Made by a program: the position numbers and the translations under genes
Notes under the pieces: model-generated
What the model saw: the letters and a program-made list of their open reading frames with translations, nothing else
What the model was told of the DNA's origin: nothing
The model's database searches: none
NCBI RefSeq assembly: GCF_007860095.1
Contig: NZ_SJPT01000006.1
Span: 186,001-250,000, forward strand
DNA from: Novipirellula galeiformis
GTDB taxonomy: Bacteria > Planctomycetota > Planctomycetia > Pirellulales > Pirellulaceae
Direction of reading: 5' to 3'
Length of the DNA stretch: 64,000 nt
Shown: positions 503-10,367 of the stretch, piece after piece
Position numbering within the stretch: the stretch's first letter is position 1
Layout: the number at the start of each line of letters is the position of its first letter

Positions 503-866
503 GTCGCTATTGTGGGGTCACCCCAAGCGAGGGTTGTTTCACGCCATTGGCATCTCGAGGCGGAACGCCCCCTCGCAATGATGATCAAACTACGGTGTCA
601 CGCTTACCGTTTTTGCAGCCCAATTTAGTCCCCCACCGCGTGCATAGCTCGCCGAGACGTTGCCGGGACCGTGGCCGCGGTTGGGGCAAAAACTTGGCCT
701 CGCACGGATCTGCAAAAAATTGCATGCCTCCTGCACTACTCTGCATGATGTTGCTTTCGATTCTGACCCTCGCTTGAATTTTCGGAAAAAGGACATTTTT
801 TATCTGCGGTTTTTTGCGGCGTGATATCCCTGTTTGAGTGATAGCCACAGGATCGCGACTTTGGGT
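503..866. other. Intergenic region upstream of the dab operon
   Basis: No convincing gene is present; overlapping short frames on both strands lack ribosome sites and family motifs. The stretch contains repeated TGCATG motifs near 720-750 and an imperfect dyad, ATCCCTGT at 826-833 and ACAGGAT at 847-853. It is where enhancer sites for the neighbouring sigma-54 activator would be expected, but no specific activator site can be assigned. Confidence 0.4.
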
Positions 867-883
867 TTGGCATCCCCCTTGCT
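867..883 (+). promoter_or_regulatory. Sigma-54 (RpoN) -24/-12 promoter for dabA
   Basis: The sequence TTGGCATCCCCCTTGCT matches the RpoN consensus (TGGCAC, five bases, TTGCA/T) with the required GG-N10-GC spacing: GG at 869-870 and GC at 881-882. Transcription would start near 893-895, giving a leader of about 34 bases with an AGGAG ribosome site at 916-920 before the ATG at 928. A sigma-54 activator gene lies directly upstream. Confidence 0.75.
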
Positions 884-927
884 CTTCCACTCCTGACATC
901 GTCCCCACCTCGACCAGGAGCCAGTCC

Positions 928-3900
928 ATGCAAGATGCCGTCGCGAGTCTTGTCCCCAGCCAGGATGCCCCCACCGATCATTCAAGCAATCGACAAGACA
1001 AGCTGCGATCGGCGATCGAGCATGCGGCTCATTACCTGCCGTCGCAAGGTCCGATCTCCATCTTCGTGCACCACAATACGCTCCATTCGTTCGAGGAGAT
1101 GCCCTTTGATGAGGCGGTCGTTGAAGGTGGAAAGCTTTATGGTTGCGAACCTTACCTCAGCGAGGGACGTTACCGAGACGAGCTCAATCGTGGCCGAATT
1201 TCCGTCGACGATCTGCGCCAAGTTCTGATGGATCATCTCGAGGAAGAGGCAGACGAATTGGTCGCCAGTTTCGGGACGCGTTACACCTTGCGATTGGCGA
1301 TGTTGCAGATGACATTGCATTCGGTCCCGGATGCCGAACTGCGTTGGCTGCTAGCGGAAACGGACATGCTGCGTCATTTCCGCGATGACATTTCAGCTCC
1401 CCGTCGTGAACAAATGATCCAGCGAACGCGTGCCTGGGTGATGCGTGATCGCGAGTTAGCATCTCACCCGTCCGCTCCGGTGGCATCCGCCGCGACGTCC
1501 GAAGCCGATGCTTCGGAGCAGCTTCGAGGTACGACTGCGAGTCGATTGCCGCCGATCGTCGAAACGCTGATCGCCGAATCGGGAGGCGACAAAATCCAGT
1601 CTTGGAGCGACGCTCAATGGGAAGCGTTCGTGCTGAAATTGTTGTGGCGAATTTGCCGCGCCGGTGTCTCCACGACGAGCCTACCGTCGTCAAACGACTC
1701 GACACCGCTGCGGATCCGAGAGTTGTTGCTCGACGCGACCGGGGACGATACCGACGCGTTGGTCAACGACGTGCTGATCCGTTTCTGCGGTAGCTTCCTC
1801 GATCAAGGCTTTGCGAATTGGTCCTTGCCCCATCGTGACGAAGGGTTTGCTAGAGCGTTCGCCAAATTGTACTTGCATCGCATGACCGTCAAAGCGAGTT
1901 GGATGGAGGGGATCGTTGATGAGTTGCAAGCGATTTTAGATGGCCCGTTCGACCCGCTCGCATCGATTGCCAAGTCACTCGAAACGTTGGGCGTGGAGCC
2001 CTCGGACTTCGATTCCAAAATTGGTTTAACGTTATTGGCGCTCAAAGGTTGGGCGGGAATGATTTGGCAGGTGGAGTCGGGCGCTCCCTGGTTACCCAAC
2101 CACACCCCGGCAGGCACGCTCAATGAATACCTTGCAATTCGGTTGATGTTGGAACGTTATGCGATCGCGGAGGTCGGACACCAACAGTTCGGCACCCGTG
2201 ATTTGCCACAGATTCACAAGTTAGCCGAACAACATTCGCCGCATCGTCATGGGGCGTCGATGGAACAGCGTACTTATACGGTGTTCCAATTAGCACAAGT
2301 CAGCGGTTGGACCCCGCAACAATTGATCGACATGTCCGATCCCCAATGGAAGTGCTTGGTCGAAGAGATCGAGGCATTCTCGTCATTGGAGCGTCGCCGC
2401 ATTTTGCATGGCGCTTATGAACGACATTACCAAGTCGCAGCGCTCAACGCGATCGCTGTCCATACACAGCGCCGTCGCGAACTGAATCGCCGCGAAAAAA
2501 ATCGTCGTAACGGCAAACGACCTTCGTTCGTCGCTATTTTCTGTATCGATGATCGCGAGGAATCGTTCCGTCGACATTTGGAAGAAGTGGATCCGGAATG
2601 CGAAACCGCGTCAGCGGCTGGCTTCTTTGCCGTGGCAATGTATTACCAGGGAGCGGACCACGCCCATTTTCGCCCGCTGTGTCCCGCGATCCTGACCCCG
2701 CAGCATTACGTCCGCGAAGAACCAATGTTCTCGACGATCGATGTGAGTCAACGGCGGGCCAATCGTCGTCGTCGGATTGGACGATTGACACACCAAGTGC
2801 ATGCCAGTTCTCGCACGATGATCGGTGGCTGGGTGACCGGCGTGTTCGGAGCGATTGCGACGTTTCCGATGGTCGCTCGGATCCTGGCGCCCGGCTTGAC
2901 CTCACGAATCCGCAAGTCATTTGGCACCTTCACTCGCCCGCCCGCAACGGAATTGCAACTTGAACGCGTATCGGCAGAGCCTGGACCGACGCCCGATGCG
3001 CTCGGTTATAGCTTGGATGAGATGGCGGGAATCGTCGTGCGAATCCTACAAGACATCGGGGTGGTCGACGACTTCCCTCGAATCTTGGTTTTCTTCGGTC
3101 ATGGTTCGGCCAGTTTGAACAATCCACACGAATCCGCTTACAACTGTGGTGCTTGCAGCGGCGGACGCGGCGGCCCCAACGCGAGAGCGTTTGCGATGAT
3201 GGCGAACGATCCACGGGTGCGACGATTGACGGCCCAGCTTGGGCTGGAAATCCCCGAAGACACCCGTTTCGTCGGTGCCTACCACAACACCTGTAGTGAC
3301 AACGTCGAGTATTACGACCTCGACTTGCTCCCTCGCAGCCATCGAACGTTATTCCGACGCATTGAGAAAAGTGTCAATGAAACGCGAGCAAACGTTGCCC
3401 ACGAGCGAGCGAGACGGTTTGAGTCGGCGCCGTTGGATTTGACACCCCGTCAAGCACTTGAGCATGTGGAACAACGAGGCGAAGACTTGTCGCAAGCCCG
3501 CCCCGAATACAACCATGCGACCAACGCGTTGACCTTTGTCGGCCGACGTGAATGGAGTCGAGGGTTGTTCGCCGATCGCCGCGTGTTCTTGACTTCGTAT
3601 GATCCCAGCGTCGATGACGAGCAGGTGTCGGTGTTGTCACGAATTCTCGGTGCCGCCATTCCGGTTTGTGCCGGGATCGCGTTGGAGTATTACTTCTCGA
3701 CCGTGGACACCGAAGGCTACGGGTGTGGATCAAAACTGCCACACAACGTCGCTTCGATGTTGGGTGTCATGACGGGAGCGGCCAGCGATCTACGTCCTGG
3801 TTTGTCGCAACAAATGGTCGAGATTCACGAACCGCTGCGACATCTCTTTGTGATCGAAACGACCCCGGAGAAGATGGACTTGGTGATCGAAGGTAACCCT

Positions 3901-4122
3901 GCGATTGCTCGACTTGTCAAAGGCAATTGGGTCCAAGTCGCCCTGTTGGATCCCGAAACATCGACGTTGTTGCGATATGTCAAAGGCAAGTATGAACCGT
4001 TTGTGCCGGAGTCGACGGAGTTGGCGGAAGTGGATTCGTCGATCCAGTGGTACCGAGGTCAACGAGGGCATCTCGATTTTGCATCAATCAAGGAAACCGC
4101 TTCCAAGGAAACCGTTTCTTAA
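928..4122 (+). CDS. dabA: DabA, catalytic subunit of DAB inorganic carbon pump (UPF0753/DUF2309)
   Basis: A protein of 1064 residues from the UPF0753 family. DabA is a cytoplasmic, beta-carbonic-anhydrase-like protein that works with a DabB membrane subunit to take up CO2 and deliver bicarbonate. The zinc-site motifs are present: CIDDREESFR (Cys539, Asp541 by my count) and GHGSASLNNP...YNCGACSGG (His725, Cys740). The 15-residue His-to-Cys spacing equals that in characterised DabA. It is longer than many homologs, mainly in the N-terminal half. The ATG at 928 is preferred because AGGAG lies seven bases upstream; a GTG at 838 is in frame but would place the sigma-54 promoter inside the gene. 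It is followed 103 bases later by its membrane partner. Confidence 0.93.
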   Translation: MQDAVASLVPSQDAPTDHSSNRQDKLRSAIEHAAHYLPSQGPISIFVHHNTLHSFEEMPFDEAVVEGGKLYGCEPYLSEGRYRDELNRGRISVDDLRQVLMDHLEEEADELVASFGTRYTLRLAMLQMTLHSVPDAELRWLLAETDMLRHFRDDISAPRREQMIQRTRAWVMRDRELASHPSAPVASAATSEADASEQLRGTTASRLPPIVETLIAESGGDKIQSWSDAQWEAFVLKLLWRICRAGVSTTSLPSSNDSTPLRIRELLLDATGDDTDALVNDVLIRFCGSFLDQGFANWSLPHRDEGFARAFAKLYLHRMTVKASWMEGIVDELQAILDGPFDPLASIAKSLETLGVEPSDFDSKIGLTLLALKGWAGMIWQVESGAPWLPNHTPAGTLNEYLAIRLMLERYAIAEVGHQQFGTRDLPQIHKLAEQHSPHRHGASMEQRTYTVFQLAQVSGWTPQQLIDMSDPQWKCLVEEIEAFSSLERRRILHGAYERHYQVAALNAIAVHTQRRRELNRREKNRRNGKRPSFVAIFCIDDREESFRRHLEEVDPECETASAAGFFAVAMYYQGADHAHFRPLCPAILTPQHYVREEPMFSTIDVSQRRANRRRRIGRLTHQVHASSRTMIGGWVTGVFGAIATFPMVARILAPGLTSRIRKSFGTFTRPPATELQLERVSAEPGPTPDALGYSLDEMAGIVVRILQDIGVVDDFPRILVFFGHGSASLNNPHESAYNCGACSGGRGGPNARAFAMMANDPRVRRLTAQLGLEIPEDTRFVGAYHNTCSDNVEYYDLDLLPRSHRTLFRRIEKSVNETRANVAHERARRFESAPLDLTPRQALEHVEQRGEDLSQARPEYNHATNALTFVGRREWSRGLFADRRVFLTSYDPSVDDEQVSVLSRILGAAIPVCAGIALEYYFSTVDTEGYGCGSKLPHNVASMLGVMTGAASDLRPGLSQQMVEIHEPLRHLFVIETTPEKMDLVIEGNPAIARLVKGNWVQVALLDPETSTLLRYVKGKYEPFVPESTELAEVDSSIQWYRGQRGHLDFASIKETASKETVS

Positions 4123-4225
4123 CCGTCGCAGCAGCCGATTCGAGTGGTGCTGCGATTCCCGAGACTGACATGAAGACTGAAACGCCTAGCGAGTTGTCGC
4201 TCCCCAGGACAACAGGAAACCTTTG

Positions 4226-5620
4226 ATGAACTTAACTGATACCGCTTTCCAATTTTTCGGCACCGTCGTGGTGGCGAGCCCCGCCATGTTGTTGGCGATC
4301 CTGGGGCTATCCGCGTTGTTGAACCGCCCGTTAAGCGAAGCAAACATCTCGCGACTCACTCAAGTCGCCGTGCTGTTCACGATGGTACCTGGGATCATCA
4401 TCCTCGCTTTGATGTTGATTGTGGACACGCGTTACGTCCCGGTGGAATTGGGCGATTGGGTGACGATTCCCGAGCAAGAGTTTCACTTTAATTTGAAATT
4501 TGTCTTCGATCGACTGAGCATCCCCTTCTTGCTTTTGTCATGCGTTTTGTGCGGTGTCGTGGGCGCGTTCACTCGCCGCTACCTGCATCGCGAAGAGGGC
4601 TATGGGCGTTTCTTTCTCTACTATGCGATGTTCTTCTGCGGGATGGTCACCTCCTCGTTGGCGGGCACGATTGAAACCTTGTTTGTCGGCTGGGAAATGG
4701 TTGGACTTTCCTCGGCGTTGTTGGTCGCCTACTTCCACGAACGCAAAAACCCGGTTCGCAACGGGCAACGCGTTTGGTCGGTCTATCGCTTGGCGGACGC
4801 TGCCTTTTTGATCGCGGCGATCACCATGCACAGCATGACGGGTGAAGGCGATTTGGGCGGCTTGATGAGTTCTGGCGTCTGGCCCGAAGGGGTCGCGGCA
4901 ATCTCGTCCCAACAAGCGTTGTTGGTCGGGACGCTACTGCTGATCGCGGCCGCGGGTAAATCAGCACTGTTTCCATTTTCCGGTTGGTTGCCGCGAGCGA
5001 TGGAAGGGCCGACTCCGTCGAGCGCAATTTTTTACGGAGCGTTGTCGGTCCACTTGGGCGCCTACCTGTTGTTGCGAGTGAGTCCGATTTTGGAGGCTTC
5101 GCTATTGTTGCAAATGATGGTCATTACCCTGGGTTTGGTTTCCGCCGGTTGTGGGGCGTTGATGTCACGCGTGCAAAATGACGTCAAGGTTTCGTTGGCC
5201 TACGCGTCCTTGACCCAGGTTGGCATCATCGTGGTCGAAATTGGACTCGGGCTGCGTTATTTGGCGCTCATTCACATCATCGGTCACGCTTGTTTGCGAA
5301 CGATGCAATTGTTGCGTGCTCCGACGTTACTGCGTGATTACAACGAACTTGAAAACGCGATAGGGATGCGGCTCCCCGAAGGCTCATCGCCCTGGACCCG
5401 ATATCTCCCGGTGAGTTTGCAAGGTTGGTTTTATCGATTTGGCTTCGAGCGTGGATTCATGGATATCGCCTTAGACCAATGGGTGGTGCGGCCGTTCATG
5501 AGTCTGTTTCGTTGGTGTGACCGGATGGAACATCGCACCACAGATTGGTTGTCCCGCGATCAGTCTCGCGAATCGGACAAGATTGAATTGCATCCCGAAT
5601 CGACGGGACGCGCGGCCTAA
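4226..5620 (+). CDS. dabB: DabB, NuoL-like membrane subunit of DAB carbon pump
   Basis: A polytopic membrane protein of 464 residues of the proton-translocating NADH dehydrogenase ND5/NuoL type. Core motifs are visible: [17 protein letters not shown] in the middle and [23 protein letters not shown], the family's lysine-bearing helix loop. Size and position after dabA fit DabB, thought to couple cation flow to CO2 hydration by DabA. The last 100 residues are hydrophilic and amphipathic. ATG 4226 is chosen over the in-frame TTG at 4223; an AGGAAAC site lies just upstream. Gene order A then B is the reverse of many proteobacterial dab operons. Confidence 0.9.
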
Positions 5621-5730
5621 CTTCCCCGCGTTCTAGACCAACATCGAGTCGCATCATCGCCCCGGCGAAAACGGGGCCCAGCATGGCGACTCCCACGAAT
5701 ACACCCCCTCACGATAGGAACCCGGCTTCC

Positions 5731-7263
5731 ATGCCTGAACTTCACTTCCCTTGGATCGAAGTCTCCATCCTCGTCCCGTTGCTCGGGGCGATCTGGATCC
5801 ACTTTATGGGCCAACGAGAGAATCTGCTTCGCCACGCCATCGTGATCTGTGCAATCACGTTTGTGTTGACGGTGGGGGAATTAATCGACTTTGTCATCAT
5901 CGGCGCGTTTGAAGCGCACGATCACTGGTTGTTTCTCGATTGGTTATTCGACCGCGACATTTTTGTCGTCGATGAGCTCAGCGCATTCCAATTGCCGTTG
6001 GCCGCGTTGATCTTTTTGGTCACCATCATGTCGACGCTGCGAACCAAAACCCCTCGCTTTTCTTTGAAGTTGGCGCTCGTATCCGAATCGTTGTTGTTGG
6101 CGACCTTTAGTTGCCGCACCTCGTGGACCTTGGTGGCTTTGTTGGCGGCATCGACGATCCCTCCCTATTTGGAACTGCGTCAACGTGGCCGATGCACTCG
6201 CATCTACACCCTACACATGGGATTGTTCGTCGCCCTGATGGTGAGCGGTTGGGCGTGGTTATCGAGGGTCGATGCGACCTCCTCCGCCGCGTTGATCCCG
6301 GGAGCGTTGTTAACGGCCGCCGCGCTGCTGCGTAGTGGAATCGCCCCGTTCCATCTGTGGATCGCCGATCTATTCGAAAAAGGAACCTTCGGGACCGCGA
6401 TCCTGTTTACGACCCCGTTGGTTGGCGCCTACGCCGTGATGCGATTGGTATTACCGATCGCCCCTTCATGGGCGTTGCAGAGCATTGCAATCCTGTCGCT
6501 AGTGACAGCGGTTTACGCTGGAGGAATGGCGTTGGTGCAACGCGAAGCACGCCGTATGTTCTGTTACATCCTGCTTAGCCAATCGTCGTTGGTGCTCGTG
6601 GGCCTCGAATTGGTCACCCCGATCGGTTTGACCGGAGCATTATGCCTGTGGTTGTCCGTCGGCTTGTCGTTGACGGGATTCGGAATCACGTTGCGTAGTA
6701 TTGAGTCACGGATCTCGCGTATTTCATTAGCGGATTACCACGGCTTGTATCGCCAGATGCCCATCTTCTCAGGTTTCTTCCTGTTGACGGGATTAGCGTC
6801 GATCGGATTCCCCGCAACGGTCGGTTTCGTTGGCATGGAATTGCTGATCGAAGGTGCCGTGGACGTCTACCCCTTGGTCGGCACGATGGTGGTAATCGCT
6901 GCGGCACTCAACGGGATCGCCGTCTTATGGGCCTACTTTCGCATCTTCACCGGGCGGCACAATCCAACGTTAATTCCGATGCATGCACGGCTGAGCGAAA
7001 ATGTCGCCGTGCTGATCCTGAGCTTGCTCATTCTTGGTGGCGGATTGGTTCCGCAACCGGGCGTTGCGTCGCGGTACCACGCCGCTAAAGAACTCACGCG
7101 ACAACGCCAAGGTAATCCAATGACCGAAGACGCGGATCACTCTCCCGATCACGCGCCAGCACATGTAGAAGTCTCCACGTCCGCTCTGCCTGCTACGAAT
7201 ATTGTCACGCCTTTGGCGAACAAGCGACTCGCCTCCTCTAAAGCTAAGGATCCAACCCAATGA
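5731..7263 (+). CDS. Second NuoL/NuoM-like membrane subunit of the dab operon
   Basis: A membrane protein of 510 residues related to NADH-quinone oxidoreductase chain 5 and multisubunit antiporter subunits. It has many helices and motifs such as [20 protein letters not shown] and [14 protein letters not shown], which correspond to the ND5/MrpA-D core. It is not a duplicate of the preceding subunit: the conserved loop differs and a hydrophilic, His-containing tail of about 60 residues follows the last helix. An AGGAA site precedes ATG 5731; an upstream in-frame ATG at 5683 lacks a good site and would add a polar, poorly ordered extension. Its stop overlaps the start of the SulP gene, so the two are probably translationally coupled. 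Its role beside DabA/DabB is inferred. Confidence 0.82.
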
Positions 7264-9290
7264 GCAACTCGGTTCCCGATTCCCTGGAAAAACCACGCGG
7301 TAATCTCAGCGGATTTACGAAGTACTTTAAATACGATTTCATCTCCGGTTTGCTCGTCTTTTTGATCGCATTGCCGTTGTGTCTGGGAATCTCGATCGCC
7401 AGTGGGTATCCGCCGATCGCGGGGATTTTCACCGCGATTATCGGATCGTTGCTAACCACCTTCATTAGCGACTCGGAACTAACCATCAAAGGGCCCGCAG
7501 CCGGTTTGATCGTGATTGCGATTGGATGCATCGGTGAATTTGGCGGCGACGGCATGGTGGGCGGGTGGACGGAAAGTGACGTTACCGCCTATCAAGCGGC
7601 ATTGGCCGTCGGGGTTGCTGCGGCGGTGCTGCAAATCTTCTTCGGCGTTTTCCGGGCTGGGATTCTGGGCGAGTTCTTCCCGATTTCTGCGGTACACGGA
7701 ATGTTGGCGGCCATCGGGGTGATCATTATCGCCAAGCAAATCCCAGTTGCCCTAGGCGTCAGCGCGTCCGGTGGCCCGATCGAGATGCTCAGGGAGATTC
7801 CGACGTTTATCGCGTCCGCGAATCCGGCGATCGCCGCGATTGGATTGACGAGTGTGTTGATCATGTTTTTGTGGCCGGTGGTGATCGGCAAATTTCCTCG
7901 ACTAAAAGTATTGCCCTCGCCGTTAATCGTGTTGATCGTTGCGATTCCGATGGGGATGGGATTCGACCTGATGCACCCGCATTCTTACACGCTTCAAAAT
8001 CACCAATACCAACTTGGCGAGAACTACCTCGTTGCGATGCCAGACCGCGTTTTCGGCATGTTCGATTCCTTGACGGCCCCTGATTTCTCGGCGTTACAGC
8101 AACCCAAAGCATGGAAATGGGTGTTCATGTTCTTTATCATCGGCAGTCTCGAGTCGTTGCTCAGTGCGAAGGCGATCGACATCATCGACCCCTGGAAACG
8201 CAAAAGCAGCATGGACCGCGACATGGTCGCCGTCGGTGCTGGGAACCTGTGCTGTGCGTTTGTTGGTGGCCTACCGATGATCTCCGAGATCGTGCGAAGT
8301 AAAGCGAACATCGACAACGGTGCTCGCACGCGTTTCGCAGATCTTTGGCACGGAATTTTCCTATTGGTCTGCGTCGCATTGATCCCCATGGTGCTGCACC
8401 GCATCCCAATGGCCGCGCTCGCTGCGATGCTGATCTATACCGGCTTCCGTCTCGCCCACCCCAGCGAGTTCATGAATGTGTGGAGAATCGGACGCGAACA
8501 ACTTGTCATTTTCACCGTCACACTAGTATCGGTGTTGGCAACTGATTTGCTGATTGGGATCGCGATCGGGATTGCGACGAAGGCGGTCATCCACTTGGCA
8601 AACGGCGTCTCGCTGCGAGCCTTGTTCAAACCCGAGATCGCGGTTACCGAAGACGACGGAACGACGGTGCATTTGACCGCTTACCAATCTGCGGTGTTCA
8701 GCAACTGGATTCCCATCCGCCGCCAGATCGAGCGAGTGGGCTTAGTGGAACGCAAGAACGTCGAACTCGATCTGTCGGAAACGAAGCTCGTTGACCATAG
8801 CGTGATGGATAAATTACACGAGATGGAAAACGACTTCGAACAACAAGGATTGCGTTTCACGGTCGTCGGACTCGACTCGCATCAGCCGTTTGCGGGGCAC
8901 GCCCAATCAGCGCGACGCAAGGGACTTTGCACGGTCCAGCGTCTGACGATTATCACCGACCCCGATTTGGAGCAACAAATCCAACGCCATGTGGTACGGC
9001 TCGGTGCTAGCGGGTACACGTCAATCCCTTGCTACGGCGTAGGACGCCAACAATTGCAATTGGCAACCGAGGAACCGAATCCACAAGTTCGGATCGAGGT
9101 GATCGCGCCAAAAGAATCCGCCACGCTGATGATGGATTTTCTGCGACGCGAATTGCAACCCGACCACCGTTTGACCTTCTGTCTCGAAACGGTGCAAGTC
9201 GAACGGCTCGATGCCTTCCTTCCCAATCCGAATCGAAGCCAGCAAAGCGTGGATTCGGGCAGCGAGCGTTTGGACGCGGTCGCCCACTAA
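7260..9290 (+). CDS. SulP-family anion transporter with STAS and C-terminal P-II-like domain
   Basis: A protein of 676 residues. Residues 20-445 form a SulP transporter core ([35 protein letters not shown], and [16 protein letters not shown]). Residues 460-555 form a STAS domain with [17 protein letters not shown]. Residues 560-655 read like a P-II signalling fold: [30 protein letters not shown], then [11 protein letters not shown] and [11 protein letters not shown], with a short T-loop lacking a uridylylation tyrosine. SulP proteins include bicarbonate and sulfate carriers; the link to dabA-dabB favours bicarbonate. The ATG overlaps the preceding stop in an ATGA junction. The P-II assignment is by motif reading and needs structural confirmation. 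Confidence 0.88.
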
Positions 9291-9379: not shown

Positions 9380-10114
9380 TTAGCGCGAGTGATGTGTCTC
9401 GAAACCGTTCTGATTGAGCCAACCGATCAATTGCTCTGCCGCCATAGGATCGGCCAAGTGGACCGCTCGCCATGTCGGCGCGCGGTAGGCGATGTCGGAA
9501 TGTCCATCATGGGAGTTCAAACGGACTTCACAACCGATCTGGCGAAGCGCCGTGACGAATTGTTGTTCGTTGGCCGCTCCGTTACCGTGCGTTTTTTTCC
9601 AGTTCAGCATGCGAAACTCCACCGCTTCGGGGCCGCTGAAGTAAGCCGGGTCGGCGTGGCTGTGTGATACGTCAAAGCCAGATTGGGAGAGCCAAGTCGC
9701 CCATTGCTGAGCCATGTTGTGATCTTTCACCTTCAGCTCTTTCCACATCGCAGCGCGAAAGGTCACGTCAATGTGCCCCGCATGGCTGCCTTGCTTGACC
9801 TCGCATCCGAGTTGCTTGAGCGTCGCAGCATGTTGAGCCGCTTTGTTGGCATCGTCGAAGTGCATCGAATTCCACTCGGGTAAATAGAATGCCAAGCCTT
9901 CGCCAGCGTGCCCATGATCAGAATGCCCATGATCAGCGTGCTCATGTTCAGAATGCCCGTGATCAGCGTGCCCGTGATCAGCGTGCCCGTGACCGCTGTG
10001 ATCATGAGCGGTTTGACCGGTGCCTTGAGCGAAGGTCCGGTCGTCTGAAAGCGACATAGCGCCACAAACGGCAAAGGCGAAGAAGGTTTGAGTGAGTCTG
10101 AGAGTCTTAGTCAT
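9380..10114 (-). CDS. Exported His-rich protein with duplicated domain
   Basis: An unrecognised protein of 244 residues. It begins with a signal peptide (MTKTLRLTQTFFAFAVCGAMS), followed by a histidine-rich stretch built of HADHGH-type repeats likely to bind zinc, nickel or copper. The rest is two copies of a domain of about 75 residues: AFYLPEWNSMHFDD...GCEVKQGSHAGHIDVTFRAAMW and VEFRMLNWKKTHGN...GCEVRLNSHDGHSDIAYRAPTW. The copies share the order (L/M)xW, LxxxGCEV, SHxGHxD, (F/Y)RAxxW. An AAGGA site precedes ATG 10114; an in-frame start at 10174 would give no signal peptide at its end. Function unknown; a periplasmic metal-binding role is inferred from composition. Confidence 0.85.
   Translation of the reverse strand: MTKTLRLTQTFFAFAVCGAMSLSDDRTFAQGTGQTAHDHSGHGHADHGHADHGHSEHEHADHGHSDHGHAGEGLAFYLPEWNSMHFDDANKAAQHAATLKQLGCEVKQGSHAGHIDVTFRAAMWKELKVKDHNMAQQWATWLSQSGFDVSHSHADPAYFSGPEAVEFRMLNWKKTHGNGAANEQQFVTALRQIGCEVRLNSHDGHSDIAYRAPTWRAVHLADPMAAEQLIGWLNQNGFETHHSR
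9900..10010 (-). repeat. Short repeats encoding the HADHGH stretch
   Basis: Imperfect 12-18 base repeats (cores such as ATGATCAGCGTG on the plus strand) encode the histidine-rich region of the exported protein. Copy number could change in frame by slippage. Confidence 0.7.
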
Positions 10115-10367
10115 ACTGAATTCCTTAGATCGGGTTATTGCATTGGGGACCGTACGCCGCAGCGACCGAGACAAACGGACTTTCTTACGCGCAGCAGCGA
10201 AACAGTTTTAGAGCGTGTGGAGGCGACAGCCGAGCGATAAAAATGCGCAGTCACCGCTCCATTTAAGCCTCATCCGACTTGGGATTCTGGCATGCTTGTG
10301 AAGCGACAAACCAAGGCAATTTCACCCGTGGCTGAGCGTAGATTAACGCGGGTTAACGCGAGTCCCA

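Follow-up and report, generated by a model that had tools for sequence, protein, structure and literature searches.

What does a SulP-type anion carrier do at the end of a dab operon, and why does it carry a P-II-like tail? The question is raised by a 64,000-nt window (the whole stretch of DNA analysed) from Novipirellula galeiformis, in which the operon has the order dabA, dabB, second antiporter-like subunit, SulP fusion gene. No such SulP-P-II fusion was listed in full-text searches of the open-licence literature.

The SulP fusion gene closes a dab operon

All genes of the operon are on the + strand. The dabA gene (838..4122, 1094 aa) matches PF10070 with 762.9 bits. In a motif comparison, made on sequence and not on structure, residues C569-x-D571-x-R573, H755 and C770 agree in order and local spacing with the zinc and Asp-Arg residues of DabA2, as given in the accessible part of PMC13144422. 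The next gene encodes a dabB-like antiporter subunit (4223..5620, 465 aa; Proton_antipo_M 125.8 bits, Proton_antipo_N 39.6 bits); its start is that of the listed ORF and the real one may differ. A second, NuoM-like antiporter-like subunit follows (5683..7263, 526 aa; Proton_antipo_M 90.6 bits), with NDH_I_M as its top NCBIfam match, under that model's cut-off. The start codon of the fusion gene (7260..9290, 676 aa; Pfam and AlphaFold2) overlaps the stop codon of the preceding gene by four bases. The first-pass annotation was therefore right to place the fusion in a dab operon with dabA upstream. Both a DabA with the zinc and Asp-Arg residues and a DabB-type antiporter-like partner (4223-5620) are present.

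The operon resembles DAB2 of Halothiobacillus, which also has a DabA with the catalytic motif and an antiporter-like DabB, but differs from it in having two antiporter-like subunits and a SulP gene in one operon. In the available text of the DAB2 paper the word PII is absent and SulP occurs twice, at least once in the reference list. In Acidithiobacillus, can2-sulP (a SulP beside or fused with a carbonic anhydrase) likewise ties a SulP to CO2/HCO3- interconversion, but with a different hydrating enzyme and with no mention of P-II in the accessible part of PMC6458275. Neither the RuBisCO large subunit nor SbtA gave a match in the host genome.

The carrier has a predicted SLC26 fold and a substrate site differing from that of BicA

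The membrane domain (7305..8600, residues ~16-447) was delimited by predicted helices (16-447) and by alignment with SLC26 proteins and BicA; Sulfate_transp (PF00916) matches residues 23-421 (191 bits, E 3e-56). A model of the full-length monomer (mean pLDDT 77.2) matched prestin with a Z of 39.8 and the BicA membrane domain with a Z of 37.6, as expected of a SulP/SLC26 fold. Behind it comes a reduced STAS domain (8625..8879, residues ~456-540), delimited by predicted secondary structure (E459-464, E469-475, H483-496, E500-504, H513-528, E533-536) and by structural alignment with SLC26 proteins. The STAS_2 match at residues 498-540 reaches 17.3 bits, below the cut-off of 29.2; since the model aligns with SLC26 structures including their STAS domain up to residue 543, the STAS assignment is based on fold and not on Pfam. 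A linker described as flexible (8880..8927, residues ~541-556), with a pLDDT below 50 at 544-555, leads to the P-II domain. In the proposed SulP-STAS-P-II order, SulP and P-II are supported by both Pfam and fold, and STAS is probable on fold, falling short of its Pfam cut-off.

The protein is like BicA, a SulP-type Na+/HCO3- symporter, in its fold, and BicA has been reported to be bound by SbtB. However, the sequence scores 109 bits with the NCBIfam BicA equivalog, whose cut-off is 880, and the Na+ site is not conserved: in a sequence alignment D258, T262, G300 and T302 of BicA, whose roles are described in the accessible part of PMC13249358, align with E298, S302, S342 and I344. These four residues are invariant in 35/35 homologues. 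No P-II domain is mentioned for BicA in the available source text.

The substrate-site residues E298, S302 and S342-E343-I344-V345-R346-S347 are invariant and differ from those of BicA, which speaks for another cargo. The SulP might carry a different anion (e.g. sulfate, chloride or an organic acid), the link to DabA then reflecting pH or ion balance and not carbon supply. Consistent with this, the fused gene of L065 is overlapped by a Na+/H+ exchanger gene, the tail-less SulP and DabA of L160 and L170 adjoin Mrp/Mbh-like antiporter genes, and the host is without RuBisCO. We nevertheless consider this alternative quite unlikely, as this SulP clade recurs in linkage with a CO2-hydrating enzyme across records that bear the names of several phyla, and the kin of the tail adjoin bicarbonate carriers.

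The tail is predicted to be a carbon-type P-II domain

The P-II domain (8928..9224, residues ~557-655) was located by Pfam, AlphaFold2, and fold and profile searches. Pfam P-II matches residues 560-648 (39.2 bits, E 9.5e-10, cut-off 25). When the host genome was scanned with the same model, four places exceeded the cut-off, the fusion tail being one of them (43.8 bits). The AlphaFold2 model of the tail monomer shows a beta-alpha-beta-beta-alpha-beta arrangement (mean pLDDT 89.2, pTM 0.80), and Foldseek ranks P-II-like proteins first among its matches (E 5.9e-9). The P-II-like tail that had been proposed is thus borne out, and the alternative, a different fold, did not occur.

Among solved structures, the best match in both fold (Z 15.7) and profile was TTHA0516 of Thermus thermophilus (2cz4), a putative P-II-like signalling protein, which is free-standing. 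A profile of 28 tail rows matched it with an E of 3.1e-18, SbtB with 1.8e-8, and GlnB-type proteins with 3.9e-5 or weaker and partially; with 41 rows the values were 7.8e-21, 6.2e-10 and 2.6e-5, respectively. In the fold search, CPII reached a Z of 14.9 and SbtB 14.1, as compared to at most 11.5 for canonical P-II proteins. CutA folds are matched as well, with Z values of at most 11.7, below those of the carbon P-II group. CPII of Thiomonas intermedia, solved with ADP and bicarbonate, is close in fold, but it is free-standing and its sequence match is weak (E 0.76 with the 28-row profile; unlisted at E 0.01 with the 41-row profile). In a tail tree, obtained by a quick search on few columns with long branches, the tails and the SbtA-linked proteins are separated by a branch with 100% SH-aLRT from the three other P-II proteins of the host. 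A canonical nitrogen P-II (GlnB/GlnK) was rejected on this branch and on the weaker profile matches. Overall, the tail is, as judged from sequence and predicted fold, a carbon-type P-II of the SbtB/CPII group and resembles TTHA0516 and SbtB more than GlnB; the comparison with P-II families that had been called for supports the first-pass annotation.

SbtB, which is paired with SbtA in cyanobacteria, is like the tail in its P-II-like fold and profile, and both are proposed to act at a bicarbonate carrier. The tail differs in being fused to SulP-STAS, in its host lacking SbtA, in having a shorter T-loop, as the first-pass annotation had noted, and in the absence from the fusion sequence of the C-terminal CGPxGC R-loop, which is conserved in some SbtB homologues according to the accessible part of PMC8352866.

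SulP proteins form dimers, whereas P-II proteins form trimers. Dimerisation of BicA is described in the accessible part of PMC13249358 and the SbtB trimer in that of PMC8352866. The mismatch fits an unlikely alternative, in which the P-II domain serves for assembly: it would trimerise and gather SulP dimers, perhaps with DAB complexes, into clusters without sensing a ligand. The short T-loop fits it as well, and so do the anammox-type tails, which in the rows compared lack the arginine or the entire G-x-G-R loop. Tails also evolved faster than the membrane domain in 9/9 pairs, one pair being nearly equal. Against this stand the closest fold relatives, which are regulators solved with adenyl nucleotides or bicarbonate, and the conservation of G582, C591, G593, R611 and E613 in 37 to 41 of 41 tails. 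By a plain Nei-Gojobori count, dN/dS of the tail was 0.03 to 0.26 in 7/9 pairs with computable dS, showing purifying selection.

Strong free-standing relatives of the tail adjoin SbtA

The strong free-standing relatives of the tail adjoin SbtA in all 35 loci examined (24/24 planctomycete loci, 8/8 in the class sample of L112, 3/3 in the phylum sample of L122). Pfam Sbt_1 was found in 7/7 neighbours scanned, and none of six control loci with weaker GlnB-like matches (<35 bits) had an adjacent SbtA. One case runs against the rule: in the 6.5 kb examined, L215 (G394) has a tail fragment of 64 aa (47 bits) but no SbtA and no SulP, and it is taken for a remnant.

Other fusion partners of P-II were also considered and rejected. 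The long frames L081-L084, L096, L100 and L209-L211 each overlap an SbtA gene, in a different reading frame save for part of L210; the two 'othfus' rows of the tail tree are therefore SbtA-linked proteins whose frames extend further upstream. In G347 (L207), a frame of 684 aa matches P-II weakly (23 bits) and matches neither SulP nor SbtA. The 41-row tail profile found nothing in G431 (L208) or G033 (L216). SbtA is present in 13/149 family genomes, and because three of these are also fused (G059, G098 and, with a fragment, G128), no pattern of exclusion between SbtA and the fusion emerges.

The fusion co-occurs with DabA in Planctomycetota

The proposed survey of co-occurrence with dabA gave a clear association. 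Among the 149 genomes of the family sample, 51 carry the fusion, a count that includes three genes with internal stop codons (G120, G094, G044). DabA was found in 51/51 of them and in 38/98 unfused genomes (Fisher p 8e-16, relatedness being ignored). In 37/51 the dabA gene lies within 15 kb of the fusion. In the phylum sample (392 genomes), where the best 10 candidates per genome were scored in one search and the best 2 in another, DabA was present in 16/20 fused genomes as compared to 45/372 others. The co-occurrence lists omit DabA fragments, the DabA rows of tail-less genomes and the weakest phylum P-II matches (below G497 except G362). Tails on SulP proteins never linked to carbon uptake, which had been named as evidence against the idea, were mostly not seen; the four remaining fused phylum-sample genomes have no DabA match.

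These numbers also bear on the idea that the DAB complex is the target of the tail, which would sense the carbon or energy state of the cell, with SulP as its membrane anchor. The presence of DabA in every fused family genome would suit it, as would the place of the fused gene immediately after the dab genes, its start overlapping the preceding stop. In 14/51 fused genomes, however, no dabA lies within 15 kb of the fused gene; G083 and G105, each a single contig, are among these. In the phylum sample, DabA gave no match in 4/20 fused genomes. A DAB-directed tail is improbable.

Around named loci, DabA was searched by blastp with the DabA of the window as query. In titled genome records 79 relatives were scored, and DabA was found within 10 kb, on either strand, at 16/40 fused and 29/39 unfused loci, 18/24 of the fused and 5/10 of the unfused misses being on short contigs. 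The anammox-type named loci lacked DabA within 10 kb in 7/8 cases, three of them on short contigs. Row set A4 contains 34/40 named fused loci, L130, L139, L140, L141, L167 and L172 being omitted for odd ends; row set A1 leaves out L012 (a near copy of L010) and L026 (internal stop), with the window sequence standing for L005.

Tail-less SulPs of the same clade occur near DabA in records named for several other phyla; Adhaeretor mobilis (L137) provides one natural tail-less homologue. Tail-less SulPs are found in the same kind of operon as the fused ones, and the tail is therefore dispensable in some lineages. The SulP tree is a quick search without mixture model, with some genomes entered twice (L066/L105, L069/L107), and gains and losses of the tail are indistinguishable on the trees. 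L131, from a record bearing the name Methylococcaceae UBA2778, falls within the planctomycete SulPs, and its genome alone among 151 in the order sample has a fused-length frame. L112, on a 4.9 kb contig of a record named Bacteroidetes, is likewise the sole one among 195 class-sample genomes. These two candidate fusions outside Planctomycetota possibly reflect transfer or mis-binning. In the phylum sample around L122 (record named Nitrospira; 245 genomes), no fused-length frame was seen among the matches listed. L182 yielded no SulP ORF.

A probable carbon carrier with a proposed built-in sensor

Overall, we favor, with a probability of about 0.6, a SulP/SLC26 carrier of inorganic carbon, most likely HCO3-, that works with DAB and carries a covalent P-II sensor of SbtB/CPII type. 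The analysis shows the domain order, the predicted P-II fold, the kinship with SbtB, the operon linkage and its conservation, and purifying selection on the tail. Bicarbonate as cargo, the direction of transport and the sense of regulation are what we infer beyond this. The solved fold relatives of the tail are regulators with AMP, ADP, ATP, cAMP, c-di-AMP or bicarbonate (structure titles), and by analogy an adenine nucleotide may be the ligand.

Several observations point away from this reading: a BicA Na+ site that is not conserved, the low BicA equivalog score, the short T-loop, a host without RuBisCO or SbtA, the trimer-dimer mismatch, loop loss in anammox-type tails and the lack of nearby DabA at most of their loci, and tail-less SulPs in the same operons.

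In the carbon-carrier mechanism, DabA and the two antiporter-like subunits would convert CO2 into intracellular HCO3- at the expense of ion-motive force, while the SulP carrier would transport this anion, or exchange it, across the same membrane. Tethered behind STAS, the P-II domain would read an adenylate and/or bicarbonate signal and set the mobility of the carrier, so that the HCO3- pool built by DAB would neither leak nor overfill. With so short a T-loop, regulation is more likely exerted via the linker and STAS than by pore plugging of the kind that the T-loop of SbtB performs in SbtA. According to the accessible part of a 2026 review (PMC13249358), SbtB physically binds SbtA, the SulP protein BicA and CmpC/D, its mode of action at BicA being called unclear.

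A bolder and rather doubtful extension would make this single-polypeptide, signal-gated bicarbonate carrier the standard third module of DAB in Planctomycetota. Its SbtB-like domain would signal adenylate or bicarbonate levels straight to the carrier, and membrane clusters arising from the trimer-dimer mismatch (e.g. three dimers on two trimers) would place both assembly and transport under the control of carbon status.

An SbtB-type domain naturally fused to a SulP and kept in many planctomycetes offers a tractable system for how SbtB acts on SulP carriers, with close relatives in the same operon without the tail as natural with/without pairs. Since the SulP clade is tied to DAB in records named for several phyla, the data suggest an anion carrier as a frequent partner of DAB. 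The kind of sensor that is a separate protein over bicarbonate uptake in cyanobacteria is here built into the transporter, which would bring carbon-type P-II control to DAB, in this case in a genome without RuBisCO.

The fusion gene closes a dab operon

The fusion gene (7260-9290, forward strand), identified by ORF and Pfam searches, encodes a 676-residue SulP-STAS-P-II protein with a Sulfate_transp domain at residues 23-421 (191 bits) and a P-II domain at residues 560-648 (39.2 bits, cut-off 25). It is the last of a run of genes on one strand, after dabA (838-4122; PF10070, 763 bits), the antiporter-like dabB (4223-5620) and a second antiporter-like, NuoM-like subunit (5683-7263), the stop of which is overlapped by 4 bases by the fusion ATG. 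A motif search in the window DabA found C569-x-D571-x-R573, H755 and C770. These zinc and Asp-Arg residues agree in order and local spacing with those of Halothiobacillus DabA2 in the excerpted text of PMC13144422. The nearest named SulP, from Roseimaritima sediminicola, is 89% identical. Across the host genome, the P-II model matched at four places, including the fusion tail (43.8 bits), and neither the RuBisCO large subunit nor SbtA gave a match.

Many planctomycete dab operons have a NuoM-like gene placed between dabB and the SulP gene, and DABs of this kind may have two antiporter-like subunits. Adjoining the fusion operon, a protein without Pfam match (9380-10174, reverse strand) shares, by eye, a repeat of about 70 residues, in LTDWKAKH-like and LPEWNSMH-like forms, with a second host protein (locus L003, 619-1056, reverse strand) near another P-II-like gene.

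The tail is predicted to fold as an SbtB-type P-II domain

The tail was modelled with AlphaFold2 from the window sequence and 40 related tails. The model (mean pLDDT 89.2, pTM 0.80) has the order strand-helix-strand-strand-helix-strand, and the leading Foldseek matches were TTHA0516, SbtB and CPII, with E values between 5.9e-9 and about 5e-7. VIA-align gave Z 15.7 with TTHA0516 (rmsd 1.8, 92 aligned), 14.9 with CPII (1.3, 93) and 14.1 with SbtB (1.8, 89); canonical P-II proteins reached at most 11.5 and CutA at most 11.7. The P-II-like fold proposed by the first-pass annotation is thus borne out by structure prediction and fold search. In the full-length model (pLDDT 77.2), an SLC26 membrane domain, a STAS-like domain, a linker and the P-II domain could be distinguished, with the linker (544-555) below pLDDT 50. 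At the place of that annotation's STAS domain, the model shows a STAS-like fold, with which SLC26 structures align up to residue 543; the Pfam STAS_2 match stayed under its cut-off (17.3 against 29.2 bits).

Profile comparison, a check proposed by the first-pass annotation, placed the tail nearer TTHA0516 and SbtB than GlnB-type proteins. A 28-tail profile matched TTHA0516 at E 3.1e-18, SbtB at 1.8e-8 and GlnB-type proteins at 3.9e-5 or weaker, the latter over part of the profile; a 41-tail profile gave 7.8e-21, 6.2e-10 and 2.6e-5, respectively. In a quick tree, a 100% branch parts the host's three other P-II proteins from the tails, and the free-standing relatives form a group of their own (94%) next to the fused tails. 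The genome context of these relatives is the strongest pointer to the tail's kinship. SbtA adjoins them in 24/24 planctomycete loci. The class sample around L112, a record named Bacteroidetes, had matches in 56 other genomes; loci from 8 of these were examined, and SbtA is the neighbour in 8/8. Of six loci fetched within the phylum sample around L122 (a record named Nitrospira), the three scoring at least 36 bits all have SbtA next to them. SbtA was absent beside six GlnB-like matches below 35 bits, three from the L122 sample and three from the order sample of L131. The weakest SbtA neighbour, at L101, has 28% identity, and Sbt_1 (Pfam) was found in 7/7 neighbours scanned. Neither SbtA nor SulP was seen near a 64-residue tail fragment (L215).

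Among 41 tails, conservation was seen at E613 (41), R611 and E643 (40 each), G582 (39), C591 and G593 (37 each); residue 641 is a cysteine in 28. C591 and C641 may have a redox role like that of the SbtB R-loop. The anammox-type tails in the rows shown are without the arginine or the whole G-x-G-R motif. Profile alignments also agree with the shortened T-loop noticed at first pass: the loop at this position is shorter than in SbtB.

The fusion co-occurs with DabA

In the host-family sample, the tail query matched in 62 of 149 genomes. Counting as fused a frame above 600 residues whose match starts by position 5 and reaches position 90, 51 were fused; eight matches ended by position 61 and four lay in short frames. 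Four of those eight (L085-L088) were read and proved to be SulPs ending before the P-II domain. DabA, present in 89/149 family genomes, was found in 51/51 fused versus 38/98 others (Fisher p 8e-16, kinship ignored), and in the phylum sample, with 20/392 genomes fused, in 16/20 versus 45/372; co-occurrence of fusion and dabA was a check proposed by the first-pass annotation. dabA lies within 15 kb of the fused gene in 37/51 family genomes, and in 36 of these upstream, on the same strand, 4.57 to 5.34 kb away. Some unlinked fused genes are on short contigs; in the one-contig genomes G083 and G105, fusion and dabA are truly unlinked. The four fused phylum-sample genomes without DabA look like anammox bacteria, since three belong to group f46, in which a further genome has the same SulP sequence as Candidatus Loosdrechtia, and the SulP of the fourth (group f95) falls among Scalindua sequences.

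A SulP clade with tailed and tail-less members

A titled genome collection was scanned with the full-length alignment. Among the best 80 of 550 relatives, 79 had a SulP ORF, 40 fused and 39 unfused; DabA lay within 10 kb of 16/40 fused and 29/39 unfused SulPs, with 18/24 and 5/10 of the misses, respectively, on contigs too short to tell. Going by record names, the tail-less SulPs near DabA among these 80 belong to Nitrospira and Nitrospirales; to Woeseia and other Proteobacteria; to Bryobacterales and another Acidobacterium; to a Deltaproteobacterium; and to planctomycetes. In the SulP tree, 51 fused rows sit with 10 unfused ones in a mostly planctomycete clade (support 93), while a second clade (support 99) consists of 30 unfused rows drawn from most of the other phyla. 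The fused or unfused label switches 8 times on the tree versus 32.7 in shuffles. One tail gain with several losses would be the simplest reading. Searches 3′ of seven tail-less planctomycete SulPs (L085-L088, L137, L146, L150; about 300 downstream bases for L088) gave no remnant past profile position 15 at E <0.1.

The tails are under purifying selection, because dN/dS was 0.03 to 0.26 in 7/9 near pairs and, in the two with saturated dS, tail pN was 0.25 to 0.28 of pS. Tail dN exceeded membrane-domain dN in 9/9 pairs, L140/L141 being almost equal.

In L087 (1-9600, genome G129), the tail-less SulP is on the strand opposite dabA/dabB and is separated from them by two unassigned ORFs. The other tail-less operons inspected in planctomycetes (e.g. 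L085, L086, L137) have their gene order intact. Two records named as Proteobacteria (L160, 10001-20430; L170, 10004-20365) show a tail-less SulP, DabA directly after, and Mrp/Mbh-like antiporter genes a few genes on (MbhD/E and two Proton_antipo_M proteins in L160, MNHE in L170), perhaps a cation-linked DAB system. A locus in a record named Brocadiaceae (L110, 9953-18631), without DabA match, has a fused SulP followed by Proton_antipo_M, NADHdh (NuoH-like), a weak NuoK-like protein, a second Proton_antipo_M and a hydrogenase-like protein of the complex-I 49/30 kDa type. In L065 (7062-11599), there is a 4-base overlap between the fused gene and the listed start of another gene, which encodes an 846-residue Na+/H+ exchanger-domain protein.

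Implications for transport and control

Site residues were located by aligning the fusion with the membrane domain of BicA (6ki1), the roles of the BicA residues being taken from the excerpted text of PMC13249358. BicA D258, T262, G300, A301 and T302 align with fusion E298, S302, S342, E343 and I344. These five fusion residues, as well as R346 and S347, are invariant in 35/35 homologues. Because this SulP group differs from BicA at the site, the alignment gives no support for BicA-like Na+ coupling.

SulP proteins are dimers and P-II proteins trimers, which poses a symmetry question for the fusion. The parts of the system (SulP, SbtB-type P-II, DAB) are already known. What appears new is the covalent SulP-P-II combination, conserved beside dabA, and the DAB-linked SulP clade, neither of which was found in the text returned by full-text search of the open-licence literature. 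The excerpted text of PMC13249358 reports that SbtB binds BicA as well as SbtA and calls its mode of action on BicA unclear; in that of PMC8352866, the T-loop of SbtB goes into SbtA. Given the short T-loop of the tail, control would more likely pass through the linker and the STAS domain than work in the SbtA-SbtB manner. We infer the cargo, the ligand, the direction of transport and the sense of control. The best-supported reading is that the SulP part would carry a carbon anion alongside DAB and that the built-in SbtB-type tail would act as the sensor that sets this carrier.
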